A stretch of DNA of 64,000 nt from Gemmatimonadota bacterium. GTDB taxonomy: Bacteria > Gemmatimonadota > Gemmatimonadetes > Gemmatimonadales > Gemmatimonadaceae. This document shows positions 19,324 through 27,303 of this stretch, in pieces (within the stretch, counting starts at the first letter, position 1; each line of letters begins with the position of its first letter). The DNA lies in contig BJHH01000001.1 of NCBI GenBank assembly GCA_014192065.1, forward strand, positions 620,001-684,000, written 5' to 3'. A program made the translations under genes and the position numbers. Under the pieces are notes generated by a model that saw only the letters and a list, made by a program, of their open reading frames with translations, did no database searches and was not told the DNA's origin.

Positions 19324-22300
19324 CTACCGAAAATCCCTTGACTGCTTGGTGATCGCCGTCGCCTCGAGTGCAATGAACTCGTGGCCGACGACCGACAGCG
19401 CGTGCCCCTCGCGGCTCACCTGTCCGTGTACGAGGATGAACTGCGCGCGCTTCACGACCTCCTCGTTGGGTTCGACGTCGTCTTTCTTCACCACGACGTT
19501 GATGAAGCCGTGCTCGTCCTCGAGCAGCAGGAAGAGCACGCCGTTCGCGGTGTAAGGCCGCTGGCGGATCACGACGAGCCCCGCCACCGAGACATCCTTC
19601 CGGTTCGGTACGCCCTCCAAGGCCTTGCTGTCCTTCACTCCCTGGGCCTTCAGGCGGTCTCGGTACGCCATCATCGGGTGGCCGTGGATGGTCACGCCGG
19701 TGGTGGAGTAGTCGAGCTGGATCAGCTCGTCGCGCGTGAGTGGTGGCGGATGGTGTGCCGTCTGATGTGTGGGGGCGAGCGGTAGCGTGTCGTGCGCAGC
19801 GCGCAGCGCTTCCCACGCGGCCTTGTGCCGGTCGTGTTCCCACGCGGAGAAGGCGCCGGCCTGCGCGAGCAGGTTCACCTCCGCGCGCGTGAGATGGGCG
19901 CGCGAGGCCACGTCGGCAATGGAGGTGAATGGCGCCGCCGCCTTCGCCCCGCGGAGCGATTCCAGCGCGCGCTCGCTGATGCCGCGTACGAACCGCCAGC
20001 CTACGCGGAGCGCTGGGTGGGGGCTATTCACCGGCGGACCTTCACGTACGAATCGCCGTTGCGCGACGTGTCGTTCCGCCGTGAGTGGCGCCGCCATCTC
20101 GGTCGTGCATTCCCAATCCCCCGACTGCACACAGGGCGGTCGTACCTCCACGCCATGTCGCGTGGCTTCGTGGATCAGGGTGGCTGGTGAGTAGAAGCCC
20201 ATCGGCCAGGCGTTGAGGATTCCAAGAAAAAACTCTGCGGGGTAATGCACCTTGAGCCAGGCCGTCGCGTACGCGATGAGCGCGAAACTCCACGCGTGCG
20301 ACTCGGGGAATCCATAGTTCGCGAATCCTTTCAGGTCATCACACACCTGCCGCGCCATCTCCGGTGTGATGCGCGGGGTGATGTCGTGCGCGATCATCCG
20401 CTCGCCCAGCCGATCGAGCGCGGCCAGCAGCTGCGGTTCCTTCCGGACGTTGCCCATCGTGCGCCGCAGTTCGTCAGCTTCGCCACCGGTGTAACCGCCC
20501 ATCGCCATCGCCATCGCCATCGCCTGTTCCTGGAAGATCGGGATCCCCTGTGTGCGTGCGGTGATCGGCTCGAGGGCGGGATGGAGATAGATGGGCATCT
20601 CGTGCCCGCGCCGCCGGCGCGTGTACGGACGCACGAACTTCGCCTGGATCGGGCCGGGGCGAATCAACCCCACTTGCACGACGATGTCGTAGAGGCAGTC
20701 GGGCTTGGTGTGCACCACCGACGCGATCTGCGCGCGGCTCTCGATCTGGAACGTGCCCACCGTCTCGCCGCGCGAGATGAGGTCGTAGGTCTGCTTGTCG
20801 TCGATCGGGAGCGTGTACATCTCCGGGCGCGTGCCCGTACGCACCTCGATCGCGTCGAAGGCGCGGCGGAGCATTGCGAGCCCGCCGAGTCCGAGGAAAT
20901 CGAATTTCGGAATACCCACGGCGTCGAGATCGTCCTTGTCGAACTGGACGATGGTGCGGCCCATGGTGGTCTGCTCGATGGGGAGCCAGTTGCCGAGCGG
21001 TGCACCGGACAGCACGAATCCGCCGACGTGTGTGGCGCGGAGGCGTGGGAGCCGGTCGAAGCCTGCAATGGCGCGGAGGAGCGCACGCACGCGCGGCGTG
21101 TTGATGTCGAGCCCCGCCTGCACGGCGTAGCGTTCCTGCAACTTCACGGCGGCGTCGAGTGGGTCGTAGCGGTGGAGTTTCTTCGAGATGGACGTCGCGA
21201 GGTCGGCGGGGTACCCGAACGCGCGCATGGCATCCTGCACCGCGTTGGGCGCACGATAGGTCTGCACGATGCAGGCGATCGCCGCGTGCGGCCGCTGATA
21301 TCGCTCGTACATGTAGTCGAGCACCTCCTCCCGCCGGTCGTGCTCGAAGTCCACGTCGATGTCGGGCGCCTCGGCCTTGCCATCCACGCGCGTCTCGGAG
21401 AGGAACCGCTCGAAGAGGAGCCCGTTCTTCACCGGATCGACCGCCGTGATGCCGAGGCAGTAGACCACGGCGGAGTTGGCGGCGCTGCCGCGGCCCTGGC
21501 AGAGGATCTTCCGCGACTGGGCGAACCGGACGGCGTCCCACATCACGAGGAAGAATCCGGCGAAGCCCAACTGCCTGACGGTCGCGAGTTCGTGATCGAG
21601 TTGTTTGCGCTGTGCGTCGGATATGCAGTGGCCCCAGCGCGTGTGCGCGCCCTCGTACGTGCGTGCGCGGAGAAAGTCATTGGCCTCCACGCCGGCGGGC
21701 ATCGGGAAGGCGGGGAGGGGCGGCCGCATCCAGGAGAGATCGAATCCGCACTCGCTCGCGATGCGTGCCGCTTCGTCGAGCCCTGACTCGCATCCTTTCC
21801 ATCGGCGGTGGAGATCGGCTGGCGCGAGGAGTTTCCACTCGCCGTTGGGGTGCAGCACGCCGGCCTTGAGGGCGGCGTCGATGGTCAGGTCATGCCGGAG
21901 CGCCGTGAGTAGATCGTGCACGAGGCGGCTGGTGTCGTCGATGTAGCGCGGATCCTGTGCCGCCACCCACGGCACGCGCCCGCGCGCGGCAACGCGAATC
22001 AACTCGGCGGCGAGCGCGGCCTCGTGGCCGTCCACATGATGTAGGTGCACTTCCACCGCGAGCCGGTCGTCGAACACGGCCTTCCACTCGGCGACCTGCC
22101 GGTCGGCGCGGTCGCGCTCTCCGGCCCGAATCCGCGTCGCGCAGGCGCCCGACGCCGGGCCAGTGAGCGCGTGTAGCCCTTTCGAATGCTGCATTACCTG
22201 CGCCCACGTGACGTTCGGCTGGCCGCGGCGCATTCCGGCGTGCGCCTTCTCCCAAGTCTTCCAGATGCCCACGCGCGACTCGGTCACGAGCGCGGCGAGA

Positions 22301-22563
22301 TTGCGATACCCCTCAGCGGTGCGCGCGAGAAATGCGGCGGGATGCCCATCGACGTTGAGTTCGGCGCCTGCAATGATGCGGATTCCCTCGGCACGCGCCG
22401 TGAGCGCCGCGCGCACAATGCCGCCCACGTCGGCGGTGTCGGTGATGCCGACGGCTGAATAGCCGAGCGCGGCCGCGCGCCGAATGAGTGCCTCGGGCGT
22501 GAGCGCACCGTCGTTGAACGAGAAGGCGGTGTGGGCGCGGAGTTCGACTGTTGGGAAGGGCAC
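19324..22563 (-). CDS. dnaE2: Error-prone DNA polymerase III alpha subunit DnaE2, 1079 aa
   Basis: A full-length C-family polymerase. An N-terminal PHP domain ('VELRAHTAFSFNDGALTPEA', 'GIRIIAGAELNV') leads into the palm with 'FLVMWDAVRFAQSRKILCQG', 'RGSAANSAVVYCLGI' and the catalytic 'APDIDVDFEHDRREEVLDYM'. The finger segment contains 'FDFLGLGGLAMLRRAFDAIE' and 'LYDIVVQVGLIRPGPIQ'. Helix-hairpin-helix and OB-fold parts follow near the C-terminus ('KDVSVAGLVVIRQRPYTANG'). At about 1080 residues and with the ImuA/ImuB genes nearby it is DnaE2 (ImuC), not replicative DnaE. It performs lesion bypass and damage-induced mutagenesis with ImuA and ImuB. The start is GTG. Upstream lies the TTCGGC direct repeat also found before imuA, and no recognisable Shine-Dalgarno. 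Confidence 0.95.
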   Translation of the reverse strand: MPFPTVELRAHTAFSFNDGALTPEALIRRAAALGYSAVGITDTADVGGIVRAALTARAEGIRIIAGAELNVDGHPAAFLARTAEGYRNLAALVTESRVGIWKTWEKAHAGMRRGQPNVTWAQVMQHSKGLHALTGPASGACATRIRAGERDRADRQVAEWKAVFDDRLAVEVHLHHVDGHEAALAAELIRVAARGRVPWVAAQDPRYIDDTSRLVHDLLTALRHDLTIDAALKAGVLHPNGEWKLLAPADLHRRWKGCESGLDEAARIASECGFDLSWMRPPLPAFPMPAGVEANDFLRARTYEGAHTRWGHCISDAQRKQLDHELATVRQLGFAGFFLVMWDAVRFAQSRKILCQGRGSAANSAVVYCLGITAVDPVKNGLLFERFLSETRVDGKAEAPDIDVDFEHDRREEVLDYMYERYQRPHAAIACIVQTYRAPNAVQDAMRAFGYPADLATSISKKLHRYDPLDAAVKLQERYAVQAGLDINTPRVRALLRAIAGFDRLPRLRATHVGGFVLSGAPLGNWLPIEQTTMGRTIVQFDKDDLDAVGIPKFDFLGLGGLAMLRRAFDAIEVRTGTRPEMYTLPIDDKQTYDLISRGETVGTFQIESRAQIASVVHTKPDCLYDIVVQVGLIRPGPIQAKFVRPYTRRRRGHEMPIYLHPALEPITARTQGIPIFQEQAMAMAMAMGGYTGGEADELRRTMGNVRKEPQLLAALDRLGERMIAHDITPRITPEMARQVCDDLKGFANYGFPESHAWSFALIAYATAWLKVHYPAEFFLGILNAWPMGFYSPATLIHEATRHGVEVRPPCVQSGDWECTTEMAAPLTAERHVAQRRFVREGPPVNSPHPALRVGWRFVRGISERALESLRGAKAAAPFTSIADVASRAHLTRAEVNLLAQAGAFSAWEHDRHKAAWEALRAAHDTLPLAPTHQTAHHPPPLTRDELIQLDYSTTGVTIHGHPMMAYRDRLKAQGVKDSKALEGVPNRKDVSVAGLVVIRQRPYTANGVLFLLLEDEHGFINVVVKKDDVEPNEEVVKRAQFILVHGQVSREGHALSVVGHEFIALEATAITKQSRDFR

Positions 22564-22593
22564 TGTGATTCTCTAGTCGGATGGGAAATCAAA

Positions 22594-22610
22594 GCCGAAG
22601 AAACGCCGAA
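22594..22610 (-). promoter_or_regulatory. Direct-repeat operator upstream of dnaE2 (TTCGGC-N5-TTCGGC)
   Basis: On the minus strand two identical hexamers TTCGGC are spaced by GTTTC, giving an exact 11-bp period, 31 nt upstream of the dnaE2 start. The same element, TTCGGC-TTTTA-TTCGGG, lies before imuA at 27241-27257. Because both belong to the mutasome, I infer a shared damage-responsive regulator site. The 11-bp direct-repeat geometry is reminiscent of the alphaproteobacterial LexA box GTTC-N7-GTTC, but the sequence differs. Confidence 0.6.
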
Positions 22611-22615
22611 GATAA

Positions 22616-22879
22616 CTCTATGCCGGGGCGCCCGCCGAGTTGGCGTTCATCCGCGCGGTGTCGGCCGGCGAGTTCACCGTCGAGCCGATCGAGTCCGACG
22701 ACATCGAGCGTGCAGTGGAGGTGATGGAGGCCTACGCCGATTTTCCACTGGGGTTTGTCGACGCGTCGTTGGTCGCAATCGCCGAGCGCTTCGAAACGCT
22801 CGAACTCCTCACCACCGACCGGCGGCACTTCAGCGCCGTGCGGCCGCGGCACGCACGGGGGTTCCACGTGGTGCCGTGA
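22616..22879 (+). pseudogene. 5'-truncated VapC-type PIN-domain toxin remnant
   Basis: This frame opens right after a TAA and reads 'LYAGAPAELAFIRAVSAGEF', then 'GFVDASLVAIAERFETLELL' and 'TTDRRHFSAVRPRHARGFHV'. These match the C-terminal two-thirds of VapC PIN toxins, including the conserved FVDASLVAIAE and the TTDRRHF motif near the end. The N-terminal 40-50 residues, which carry the first catalytic Asp and a conserved Glu, are absent, and the first in-frame start is a TTG at 22640. No VapB-like antitoxin is visible. I call it a dead fragment. It abuts the dnaE2 regulatory repeat, so the truncation junction lies in the dnaE2 promoter region. Confidence 0.7.
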
Positions 22880-23002
22880 ATCGCGTGCGCAACTTGCCCG
22901 GCGTCGCCCGATGCGCGAAGATGATCGTTTCTGGGCCGAGCCACGCAGCCGCTCCGACCTTCCCGCAACACAACAGCCAACACAACCGCAGCGGAGACGA
23001 CG

Positions 23003-24949
23003 ATGAACGTGCGTCACGAGCTTGAACTGCTCGACCAGGTGCAGACCGAAGCCGAACTGATGGGTGAGGAGGCAGAGGAGCTCACCGGTCTCGCGCGCCG
23101 CGAGTTTGTATTTCTCTCCCTCGTGAGTGCGGCGGCGAGCACTTTCGGGTTCGGCGCGCGCGCACTGGCGCAGGGTGGCGCGGCCGGCGCGGTCACCGGC
23201 GCACCGCAGGCCGCACCGCAGGCTCCACTCCCTCCACTCGGCAATGGCGAGCCGATGTCGTGGACCTTTCAGCCATGGCCCGGCGGTACCGGTGACCTGA
23301 TGGAGACGCTGATCCGTGAGCGCGGTGCGGCGGCGTTCAAGCGCTCCAAGTTCGTGGTGCAGCCGTGGACGGGCCCGGTGCCGAGCGACCCGGAAACGAT
23401 TGCGTTTCTTCCTGCGCATCGTCTCGCGGCGCTGATCGCCGCGAAAAAGATCACGTCGACGCAGCTCACGAAGATCTATCTCGATCGCATGAAGCGACTC
23501 GACCCCACGCTGCTTTGCGCCGTGACGATCATGGAAACACAGGCGGTCGCCGAGGCCGCGCGCGCCGACGCCGAGATCAAGGCGGGCAAGTACCGCGGAC
23601 CGCTCCATGGCATCCCGTACGGCATCAAGGATCTCTTCGCCACGAAGGGCGTGCGCACGACGTGGGGGTCGAAGGACTTCGAAAATCGGATCATCGACGA
23701 GGATGCCGAAGTGGTCGTGCGGTTGCGCGACGCGGGCGCGGTGCTGATCGCCAAGCTGTCCACCGGACTGTTCGCCCAAGGCGACCAGTGGTATCGCGGG
23801 CGCACGAACAACCCGTGGGACGTCCGGCGCGGCTCGAGCGGTTCGTCGGCGGGCCCGTCGTCAGCGACGGCGGCTGGATGCGTCGCGTTCGGCATCGGGA
23901 CGGAGACGTCGGGTTCGATCGTCTCGCCGGCGCGAGAATGCGGACTGAGTGCGCTCCGTCCGACGTTTGGGCGCGTCAGCCGCGCGGGCGGCATGGTGCT
24001 CGCTTGGTCGCAGGATCGGGTGGGGCCCATCTGCCGGACGATCGAGGACTGCGCGATGGTGTTCAACGCGATTCATGGCGTGGACACCAAGGACCCGGGA
24101 ACGGTGACCACGCCGTTTCAGTTCGATCGCAACATCAAGCTGGCGTCGCTCCGCATTGGCGTGGACGCGACGGCGCCGAAGGAGTTCGTGGACGGACTCA
24201 AGGCGCTCGGTGCTACACCGACGCCGCTCGGTCCGCGGCCGCAGTTGGCGGGCGGCGGATTCGGTGGTGAATCGTCTGCGGCGTTCGACTCATACGTTCA
24301 GATGAAGGCGAAGGAACTCGGCGTCGATCTCGCCACGCTTCCGGAGCCGCAGCGCGGTGGTGGTCGCGCAGGTGGTGGTGCTGGTGCTGGTGGTGGTGCT
24401 GGAGGCGGTGCTGGTGGGCGCGGTGGTCCGCCGGATACGTCGGCAGCTGGGCGGGCGGGCGCTGGCGCCGCGGCGGCAGGTGCTGCCGCTGGAGCAGCAG
24501 GCGGTGGTGGCCGTGGAGACGCGGGGAATCCTACGGGAATGGCGTCGCTCACGCGCTGGACCGGCGGGCGTTTTCCGCGTGCGTTCGACTTTATCAACCA
24601 GCAGCGTCGCCGCTATATCCTCATCAGCGAGATGGGCACGCTGCTCAAGAATCTCGACATGTACGTGCCGGGCACCGGATACGACGTCGGTCTGCACGCA
24701 CAGACGGGGCATCCGTGCGCGGTGGTGCAGTACAAGTTTGAACCGCAAGCGTCGGGTCGTGGCGGTGGAGCGGGCGGCCGCGCCGGCGGGGACACCGCAG
24801 GGCGTGGCGCCGTGGAGCAGGTGGTGTACAACCCACAGCCGATCTGCGCGGTGCTCGCGGGCAATCTGTACAACGACGACAAGATTCTCTCGGTCGCGCA
24901 CCAGTTCCAAGCGCATTCGGAGTGGCATCTGAAGCATCCAAAGCTCTAG
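23003..24949 (+). CDS. Exported amidase-signature enzyme with Gly/Ala-rich insertions, 648 aa
   Basis: The N-terminus is an acidic pre-region followed by 'LARREFVFLSLVSAAASTFG' and 'ARALAQ', a Tat-like twin-arginine signal. The amidase signature domain is recognisable: 'LHGIPYGIKDLFATKGVRTT' with the catalytic Lys, 'RRGSSGSSAGPSSATAAGCV' with the cis-Ser, and 'GIGTETSGSIVSPARECGLS' with the nucleophile Ser. The family hydrolyses amide bonds; the substrate here is unknown. Residues about 450-515 form a low-complexity Gly/Ala/Arg tract, and a second short tract lies near 590, so the C-terminal half is spread by insertions compared with ordinary amidases of about 500 residues. The ATG has GGAG 6 nt upstream. 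It lies between dnaE2 and imuB on the opposite strand. Confidence 0.85.
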   Translation: MNVRHELELLDQVQTEAELMGEEAEELTGLARREFVFLSLVSAAASTFGFGARALAQGGAAGAVTGAPQAAPQAPLPPLGNGEPMSWTFQPWPGGTGDLMETLIRERGAAAFKRSKFVVQPWTGPVPSDPETIAFLPAHRLAALIAAKKITSTQLTKIYLDRMKRLDPTLLCAVTIMETQAVAEAARADAEIKAGKYRGPLHGIPYGIKDLFATKGVRTTWGSKDFENRIIDEDAEVVVRLRDAGAVLIAKLSTGLFAQGDQWYRGRTNNPWDVRRGSSGSSAGPSSATAAGCVAFGIGTETSGSIVSPARECGLSALRPTFGRVSRAGGMVLAWSQDRVGPICRTIEDCAMVFNAIHGVDTKDPGTVTTPFQFDRNIKLASLRIGVDATAPKEFVDGLKALGATPTPLGPRPQLAGGGFGGESSAAFDSYVQMKAKELGVDLATLPEPQRGGGRAGGGAGAGGGAGGGAGGRGGPPDTSAAGRAGAGAAAAGAAAGAAGGGGRGDAGNPTGMASLTRWTGGRFPRAFDFINQQRRRYILISEMGTLLKNLDMYVPGTGYDVGLHAQTGHPCAVVQYKFEPQASGRGGGAGGRAGGDTAGRGAVEQVVYNPQPICAVLAGNLYNDDKILSVAHQFQAHSEWHLKHPKL

Positions 24950-24964
24950 TCGAATCGCCGTGTC

Positions 24965-24999
24965 ACCGACGCGCTGCGCCTCTGGCGCAGCGCGTCGGT
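24965..24999. terminator. 16-bp perfect hairpin between amidase and imuB
   Basis: Arms of 16 bases (24965-24980 and 24984-24999) are exact complements around a TCT loop. They are followed on the plus strand by TGTATAT. Placed between two convergent genes, it is the best terminator candidate of the window and could serve both directions. Confidence 0.75.
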
Positions 25000-25074
25000 T
25001 GTATATGCGCATGGGGCTTTCCCTGGCCGGCATCGGCACTGACTGTCGCAGGCCCACCAACCGTCGTGAGTTGG

Positions 25075-26571
25075 TCAGTCCCACCAGCCGTGGAGGAACC
25101 AGCGATTTCCGGCTGGCGTGGATGCATGTGTGCGTGCGGTTGTTCCGGGAACGCGCGCGTTGGCGTCGCGAAAGATCCAGACAAGCACGCCTTGCTTCGT
25201 GACGCAGCGGAAATACTCGCGCGCGTAGGCGTGGTCGGCGTCCCAGTGACGGCCCGAGACGCGCTCGGGGCCAGCGACATTCACAATCTCGTGCCAGCCA
25301 TTGGCATCGCGGTAGCGCACGGGAACTAGATGATCGCGCCGGGGCGCGGTCTCAACGCTGATCGCAAGCGGGGCGGGGGCGAGTTGCAGCAATAGCTGTG
25401 GTCTCGTTGGCGCGCGGCTGCCGGTCGCGACGGTCGCGTAGCCATTCGCTGGAGTGAGCCGCTCCCGCACGGTGTCCACTGATGTGCGCGGCACCCACGT
25501 CGTGCGTTCGTCGAGGAGTGGATGCGCCGAGTTCTGCGGCACGACGACGACATCACCCTGGTCCTCGATCAGCCGCGCGACGGCGTCTTCGGTGGACTGG
25601 CTGCTCGCGAGTCCCTTGTCGAACAGGTCACCCTGCGGCGCCTCGCGCTCGGCGATTCGTGACGCGTGTACGGTGATGCCCGTGACGGCCGCCGCGAGGG
25701 TGATGCGCTCGAGGCGCGCGCGCGTGATGCGTCCCCAGGTGCGCCGATTGGCCGTCGCACGTGCGGCGCGGATCACTTCGATGTGCACCTGGGTGTTCGT
25801 GAGCGCGAACTCGACCGTGAGTTCGCGTGCGCCTTCGCCAGTCGTGGCGAGCGTGGTGCAGACGCGCTCGATGAGGTTGTTGAGTACGAAGAGGAGCCGC
25901 ATGGGATCCTTGAGCGCGTATTCCACCCAGTCGAGTGAGGCGTGCGGTGCGTCGGGCGGCGTGCTCGAGAAGATCAGCCGCGGATCATCCGCGCGGGCGA
26001 GGCGCCAGAGCGGCACGGCGGTCGCGCCGAGCCGTACTTCGATGGATTCGCGATCCAGTGCCGCAAGTTCGCCGCAGGTGGTGACGCCAATGCCGAAGAA
26101 GAGCGGACGGAGTCGCGGGTCGTGATGGAGCGTGGTGAGCGGGAAAAGGGCGACGTATGCGCGATCGGTGCCGGGGGGTACGACCACCAGCGGACGCGCA
26201 CCGTACACCGCCGCGAGTTGCGCTGCGACCGGGGTGTCGGCCACGCCTGCATGAACGTCGGCAATTCCGCGGCGTTCGAGTATGACGATGAGTTCCGCGG
26301 CGAGCGCGGCCTTGCCGTGCACGGAAAAGCCGTGCGCGTCGGCCCAGATCACGCCCTGCTCGCCGGCCTTGCCGATGGCCACGCGTGGTGCGCGGGCCAG
26401 CAGCGTGGCAGCGATTTCAGGGAGAGGAGGGTGGCTTGGCGGGTAGGCTCTTGCTTGCGGCGCTGACGACGCGGCGCCGGGACCGGCTGTTGCCAGTTTT
26501 GGATTGACCAGGCCTGATGGTCCGACCACGACGGTCAGCCAGGCCGGACTCCAGAGACAGACGAAGCTCAT
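25075..26571 (-). CDS. imuB: ImuB, catalytically inactive Y-family polymerase-like protein, 498 aa
   Basis: The protein starts MSFVCLWSPAWLTVVV, the usual ImuB/DinB-like opening in which the catalytic Asp pattern of Y-family polymerases is lost. It contains a degenerate palm ('GVIWADAHGFSVHGKAALAA'), the little-finger-like middle, and a characteristic ImuB C-terminus: 'RPQLLLQLAPAPLAISV', 'VAGPERVSGRHWDADHAYAR', 'YFRCVTKQGVLVWIFRD', 'RWFLHGWW'. ImuB is the hub that connects ImuA, DnaE2 and the beta clamp during mutagenic lesion bypass. The chosen ATG at 26571 overlaps the end of imuA by 155 nt; the frame is open further up but only antisense to or within imuA. A clamp-binding motif was not identified with confidence. 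Confidence 0.85.
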   Translation of the reverse strand: MSFVCLWSPAWLTVVVGPSGLVNPKLATAGPGAASSAPQARAYPPSHPPLPEIAATLLARAPRVAIGKAGEQGVIWADAHGFSVHGKAALAAELIVILERRGIADVHAGVADTPVAAQLAAVYGARPLVVVPPGTDRAYVALFPLTTLHHDPRLRPLFFGIGVTTCGELAALDRESIEVRLGATAVPLWRLARADDPRLIFSSTPPDAPHASLDWVEYALKDPMRLLFVLNNLIERVCTTLATTGEGARELTVEFALTNTQVHIEVIRAARATANRRTWGRITRARLERITLAAAVTGITVHASRIAEREAPQGDLFDKGLASSQSTEDAVARLIEDQGDVVVVPQNSAHPLLDERTTWVPRTSVDTVRERLTPANGYATVATGSRAPTRPQLLLQLAPAPLAISVETAPRRDHLVPVRYRDANGWHEIVNVAGPERVSGRHWDADHAYAREYFRCVTKQGVLVWIFRDANARVPGTTARTHASTPAGNRWFLHGWWD

Positions 26572-27208
26572 GCGACTGCACCGGAAGAGTGAACTCGGCG
26601 CGCGCGTTCCATCCCAGGGCGCGCACCTCAGCGTGAAGCCGGACATCGTGCGCCTCGGCGGGATCGCCGAAGGGGTCGTGATGCCAGCGGTATGACTCGG
26701 GCGCGATGCGTACCGAGAGACGGAGCGCGGCGACGTTGGCTTTCGTGGCCACCACCACCAGCGCGCCACCGCCTTCATGCGCAGCGCGAACGAGGCGCAG
26801 GCTGTCGGCGCTTTCGAGATCGACGCCGGCGAGGACGACAATCCGGAATCCACCGGAACGGAGGAGGAGGTCCGCTGCGCCGATGGCCTGCTTGTCGCCG
26901 CGCGGGCGGACGAGCAGGGGGCCATCATCCCAGAAGGCGCCAGTGATGGTGAGCGAACCGTCGATCCACGCGGCGCGATCGCCGGCGGTGATGCACGCCT
27001 GACAGGCTGCGCGAAGAATCGACGTCGATCCGCCCTGTGGTTCGCAGGCGGAAAGTTTGCCAAGCGGGAATCCGCCGTTTGGGAGCGCGCGATCGAGTTC
27101 CGCGATGCCGGTGGATGCCGGACGCGAGGTACGGCGCGCGAGGGGCATCGCATCGGGAAACTTCTGCTCGAGCAGTGCTCGGAGTTCGGCGAGTTGGGCG
27201 GCTGCCAT
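26417..27208 (-). CDS. imuA: ImuA, RecA-like mutasome protein, 263 aa
   Basis: A RecA/SulA-like protein. 'STGIAELDRALPNGGFPLGK' matches the start of the RecA-type core. The Walker A region is degenerate ('ACEPQGGSTSIL'), and 'GGFRIVVLAGVDLESADSLR' sits at the Walker B position. ImuA works with ImuB and DnaE2 in translesion synthesis and has been described as binding RecA. The ATG at 27208 lies 25 nt after a perfect TATAAT on the minus strand, and I see no Shine-Dalgarno. The last 50 residues, rich in Arg, Lys and Ser, are encoded in the stretch that also encodes the ImuB N-terminus in another frame. A direct-repeat element precedes the -10 box. Confidence 0.85.
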   Translation of the reverse strand: MAAAQLAELRALLEQKFPDAMPLARRTSRPASTGIAELDRALPNGGFPLGKLSACEPQGGSTSILRAACQACITAGDRAAWIDGSLTITGAFWDDGPLLVRPRGDKQAIGAADLLLRSGGFRIVVLAGVDLESADSLRLVRAAHEGGGALVVVATKANVAALRLSVRIAPESYRWHHDPFGDPAEAHDVRLHAEVRALGWNARAEFTLPVQSHELRLSLESGLADRRGRTIRPGQSKTGNSRSRRRVVSAASKSLPAKPPSSP

Positions 27209-27221
27209 CTATAAGAAGGAG

Positions 27222-27257
27222 ATTCGGGACTGGATTATAACCCGAATAAAAGCCGAA
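27222..27257 (-). promoter_or_regulatory. imuA promoter with direct repeat and palindrome around TATAAT
   Basis: On the minus strand TTCGGC (27257-27252), TTTTA, TTCGGG (27246-27241) form a direct repeat of 11-bp period. One base later comes TATAAT (27239-27234). The second hexamer also forms one arm of a perfect palindrome ATTCGGG-N12-CCCGAAT (27247-27222) that encloses the -10 box. A protein bound here would cover the promoter. The direct repeat matches the one before dnaE2. Confidence 0.65.
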
Positions 27258-27279
27258 AGTAAGCGCGGGGGGTTGGAAG

Positions 27280-27303
27280 AGCTGTAGCTGTAGCTGTAGC
27301 TGA
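27280..27303. repeat. Short tandem repeat (AGCTGT x3 + AGCTGA)
   Basis: Three exact copies of AGCTGT followed by AGCTGA lie between the divergent imuA and comM-like genes. The tract is too short to classify, but hexamer tracts can vary in copy number. Confidence 0.7.

Follow-up and report, generated by a model that had tools for sequence, protein, structure and literature searches.

The direct repeat TTCGG-N6-TTCGG is very probably the operator at which the LexA repressor of the Gemmatimonadota acts; LexA would be its binder, direct-repeat binding its mode of recognition and DNA damage the inducing signal. LexA acts as the master switch for the response of bacteria to DNA damage (the SOS response), LexA boxes vary sharply among bacterial groups, and the Gemmatimonadota are a widespread phylum of soil and freshwater. 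Judged on sequence, the element is a predicted LexA box in every feature tested, being located at lexA, recA and the translesion polymerases, overlapping promoters and accompanying a canonical LexA, and every relative sampled from the phylum's main body has this site, to which LexA almost certainly binds.

Two copies of the element lie on the minus strand of the window, the whole 64,000-nucleotide stretch that was analysed, at exactly the positions before dnaE2 and imuA which a preliminary description had given. Pattern matching places TTCGGCGTTTCTTCGG at 22610..22595, ending, when its trailing C is included, 31 nt short of the dnaE2 GTG at 22563, and TTCGGCTTTTATTCGG at 27257..27242, followed by a 2-base gap and then TATAAT (27239..27234). 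The window contains three matches to the pattern where shuffles predict 0.19, with none of 100 shuffles reaching three; the third match is within coding sequence. Sites were also scored with a PWM derived from the lexA promoters of relatives (maximum 26.5), according to which the full repeat unit is yTTCGG-N4-T-N-TTCGG. The features of the region are:

19324..22563, minus strand: dnaE2 (imuC), error-prone DNA polymerase, GTG start; NCBIfam NF004225 (1025 bits, above cut-off) and Pfam DNA_pol3_alpha, PHP, finger and OB
22595..22610, minus strand: dnaE2 operator, predicted LexA box; exact match, PWM 20.0
23003..24949, plus strand: amidase gene interrupting the imuAB-dnaE2 cassette; match to Pfam PF01425 (Amidase), E 2e-64
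25075..26490, minus strand: imuB, start approximate; Pfam IMS_C and weak DNA polymerase IV models
26417..27208, minus strand: imuA; NCBIfam ImuA_translesion, E 2.6e-11, under the curated cut-off
27234..27239, minus strand: imuA -10 box TATAAT, from the sequence; relatives have CTTG and TATA on the two sides of the box at matching positions
27242..27257, minus strand: imuA operator, predicted LexA box; exact match, PWM 21.4
27262..27257, minus strand: putative imuA -35 TTACTT, given a 17-nt spacer

In relatives, tblastn matches to imuB (residues about 20-471) are found immediately 5' of dnaE2, and imuA homologues are positioned before imuB/dnaE2. The ImuA/DnaE2 cassette (19324-27208 in the window) occurs in two divergent types within one genus, with about 62-85% and 32-48% identity to that of the window, which suggests that the cassette may have been replaced by transfer. 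Between dnaE2 and the amidase gene (22620-22880, plus strand) there is a short frame that looks like the C-terminal portion of a VapC-like (PIN-domain) toxin and may be a remnant, the listed ORF having no Pfam match; the amidase gene itself carries a low-complexity insert rich in Gly, Ala and Arg (24340-24520, plus strand), and a short tandem repeat, AGCTGT x4, is situated just 5' of the imuA promoter (27279-27302).

Within the window's own genome of 2.45 Mb there are only nine matches to TTCGG-N6-TTCGG, four of which precede lexA (two), imuA and dnaE2. The two lexA copies are in tandem, 26 bp apart, directly 5' of the ORF, and were all nine matches background, the probability that each of three pre-named 200-nt upstream regions (lexA, imuA and dnaE2) held one would be about 4e-10. 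A one-mismatch copy, TTCGTATTATGTTCGG, is found at the genome's own recA, and the SOS regulon here seems to be minimal, with lexA, recA, imuA(B) and dnaE2 as its predicted members. The sites at C2:78286, C2:110840, C4:204570, C5:150857, C9:26376 and C9:49464 were rejected as operators, as they are mostly coding or beside unrelated genes, and were treated as chance occurrences. The ORF which follows the tandem boxes, with MPLTRRQRQILD near its start, encodes LexA (TIGR00498, 204 bits against a cut-off of 111 bits); alignment to the E. coli protein, in which the corresponding residues are Ala84-Gly85, Ser119 and Lys156 (PMC3091678), indicates that it is intact, with an Ala87-Gly88 cleavage site, Ser122, Lys160 and the wHTH.

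Among relatives the element was conserved at lexA: an exact copy was present no more than 150 nt upstream in all 74 named Gemmatimonadota lexA loci and in none of 707 control windows, bearing in mind that the sampled genomes are mostly metagenome-assembled and that the locus counts ignore kinship. Two exact copies within 200 nt were found at 53 of these loci, and N6 was the sole half-site spacing present in all 74. The lexA genes of families f4-f8, which are outside the order, have the box too, usually doubled. For recA, a PWM scan detected a TTCG(T/C)-N6-TTCGG-type site at all 27 loci of family f1 whose available upstream sequence was 250 nt or longer, and the box was also present in families f5-f8, the f7 and f8 copies being on the opposite strand and read from the printed sequence. 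The same scan found a site at 27 of 29 imuA loci of relatives. A lineage-specific damage-response operator, as the preliminary description had proposed, is thereby supported at the level of sequence, since the motif is far above background, both in the nine sites of the 2.45 Mb genome and at lexA, and is conserved upstream of the lexA, recA, imuA and detached dnaE2 orthologues. The palindrome ATTCGGG-N12-CCCGAAT, to which attention had likewise been drawn, does exist around the imuA -10 box; however, CCGAA is absent from the matching interval at every other imuA site, including that of the closest relative (81% identical), and the palindrome, being confined to the window genome, was rejected as a functional element and attributed to chance.

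Aligned lexA promoters of relatives read CTTGCgC-[TTCGG-N6-TTCGG]-n-TAncgT and aligned imuA promoters CTTG-[box]-TATA, such that the box takes up the 17 bp between -35 and -10 in promoters of the sigma70 type, a position from which repression by occlusion would be the natural mechanism; the second lexA box is most often 24-27 bp downstream of the first. A consensus promoter scan of the region passed no promoter, that of imuA included, and the -10 of dnaE2 itself (TTTGAT) is weak.

The distribution of the box at dnaE2 follows the structure of the transcription units. Where dnaE2 has no adjacent imuB, it has a box of its own at eight of ten loci of relatives, in contrast to none of the 17 loci at which imuB is just upstream on the same strand (Fisher p 2e-5, kinship ignored); the two detached loci without a box are L085, from a fragmented assembly, and L094, where imuA and dnaE2 are about 3.3 kb apart. 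The window is a split case, with the opposite-strand amidase gene between the two halves and a box at both imuA and dnaE2. The operator tracks transcription-unit structure, which would not be expected from chance or gene phylogeny alone: once the mutasome operon has been split, dnaE2 as a separate unit has a predicted LexA box to itself. Kinship among the counted loci is offset only in part by this transcription-unit test and by the reach of the element across eight families.

In the mechanism we propose, two half-sites in the same orientation and one helical turn (11 bp) apart fill the spacer between -35 and -10, and LexA bound to the box in undamaged cells would block RNA polymerase at lexA (with its two boxes), recA, imuA(B) and dnaE2. 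Upon damage, RecA filaments would form and provoke the self-cleavage of LexA, and those genes would be derepressed, raising ImuA, ImuB and DnaE2 together.

A second, divergent LexA-like protein is encoded in the Gemmatimonadaceae (G000:C7:8431-9000, L152, with relatives L153-L170), with about 25-38% identity to the first. An SOS box was found upstream of its gene at none of the 19 family loci read, and this paralogue was consequently rejected as regulator or target; in several genomes the upstream sequence is, by eye, the end of a gene resembling glutamyl-tRNA synthetase.

The presence of this protein could be taken to mean that some other damage regulator, whether a second repressor or a PafBC-type WYL activator, binds the repeat and that LexA is merely one of its targets, and a direct repeat in a promoter spacer combined with a weak -35 could indeed suit an activator. 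We consider this very unlikely. Every family of the class that was examined has the box, mostly in two copies, at its own lexA, which argues for autoregulation, whereas the second lexA is boxless; the well-spaced -35-like CTTG and -10 TATA around the box make an activator unneeded; and the sequence of the box shifts together with the recognition helix of LexA. It is the doubling at the lexA promoter and this covariation which identify LexA as the probable regulator.

Short two-copy repeats do often arise by chance, as the imuA palindrome proved to have done, and the likeness between two promoters might have been a compositional coincidence; the probability of this is negligible given the 74 lexA loci against 707 empty control windows and the four of nine genomic sites which precede lexA, imuA and dnaE2, and a chance origin was regarded as refuted. 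Just as improbable is a recognition sequence for an alternative sigma factor, of the ECF or another kind, which the proximity of the element to the start codon and its overlap with the promoter might bring to mind, but the box forms the spacer, with distinct TTGC/TTGAC and TATAAT-like elements on either side, and the second copy at lexA is downstream of the promoter.

Further evidence on LexA recognition is provided by family f9 (L315-L320 and L346), which is inside the phylum and outside the class. Its lexA boxes are TTCGC-N6-TTCGC, flanked by TTGAC and TATAAT, and the same sequence precedes an UmuD-like gene. Neither a TTCGC nor a TTCGG box was found at the recA of this family, and the make-up of the regulon hence differs within the phylum; as the genome-wide count of TTCGC-N6-TTCGC in f9 did not exceed that of a reversed-pattern control, credit is limited to the sites at lexA and the umuD-like gene. 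Three lexA loci titled Acidobacteria have TTCGC-N6-TTTGC, although one of them, at a contig end, only appears to; each of these three genomes has a single such site, and no wider regulon emerged from them. All 74 in-class LexAs and that of the window genome combine TTCGG boxes with Glu44 in the recognition helix (SLATVHEHL), while the f9 and Acidobacteria-titled LexAs combine TTCGC/TTTGC boxes with Lys44 (S-ATVHKHL). In E. coli LexA the position equivalent to residue 44 is Glu45, which contacts DNA (PMC3091678). A tree of the LexAs is compatible with either Glu44 or Lys44 as the ancestral state. It is conceivable, with a likelihood we would place just short of even, that Gemmatimonadota LexA reads the direct repeat and that the single change of Glu44 to Lys turns G into C at position five of both half-sites; pairing of Glu with a bottom-strand C and of Lys with a bottom-strand G would explain such a swap, the chemistry being inferred. 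Two deltaproteobacterial-type LexAs also have Lys and yet have other upstream sequences, so that Lys by itself is not what determines the box. Were the switch real, an entire SOS regulon would have been rewired in nature through one residue, with the direct-repeat geometry kept throughout, and it offers a testable residue-to-base specificity switch.

Seventeen LexA motifs have been reported (PMC8565304), and many are also reviewed in PMC9578287. The closest in geometry is the alphaproteobacterial GTTC-N7-GTTC (PMC8565304, PMC9578287, PMC3323433), which is bound by LexA and controls lexA, recA and imuA-imuB-dnaE2; the earlier comparison with it was apt, in that both are direct repeats with an 11-bp period, but in the Gemmatimonadota each half-site reads TTCGG, with a variable base ahead of TTC. 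The Gram-positive box, CGAAC-N4-GTTCG (PMC9578287), has the TTCG core in common, but is inverted with a 4-bp spacer, and the E. coli box, CTGT-N8-ACAG (PMC3323433), shares the protein family and the operator-over-promoter logic but has a different half-site and is palindromic. The lexA upstream regions contained GTTC-N7-GTTC at two of 74 loci (against 11 of 707 control windows) and GAAC-N4-GTTC and CTGT-N8-ACAG at none of the 74, so the boxes of other groups, none being above background, were rejected for Gemmatimonadota lexA. The reported mismatch to known LexA boxes consequently holds, although what it denotes is probably a LexA-box variant and not a non-LexA element. Mycobacterial PafBC-controlled promoters (PMC6789036) are also damage-responsive; PafBC is an activator, whereas the Gemmatimonadota box is located at lexA itself, within an otherwise sigma70-like promoter. 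No Gemmatimonadota LexA box was found in the open literature searched, and one may have been described elsewhere; the in silico evidence for a new LexA-box variant is strong. It would add a predicted phylum-wide direct-repeat LexA operator outside the Alphaproteobacteria.

With this box in hand, SOS regulons should be readable from sequence throughout the Gemmatimonadota. The small genome of the window apparently has only lexA, recA, imuAB and dnaE2, while larger genomes apparently include more repair genes. In seven relatives, exact extended sites numbered 49 as opposed to 11 for reversed-pattern controls, and further genes preceded by sites encode Ku, a photolyase and two kinds of radical SAM protein, one of PA0069/Rv2578c type (in two genomes) and the other linked to UDG. 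A site was also present 5' of gyrB in relatives (the gene being judged from sequence), and some exact sites were within coding sequence (mutM, pepP). In one relative (L264, G028:C1:192634) an exact box is situated 5' of a cytosine-5 DNA methyltransferase gene, the product of which has an N-terminal HTH.
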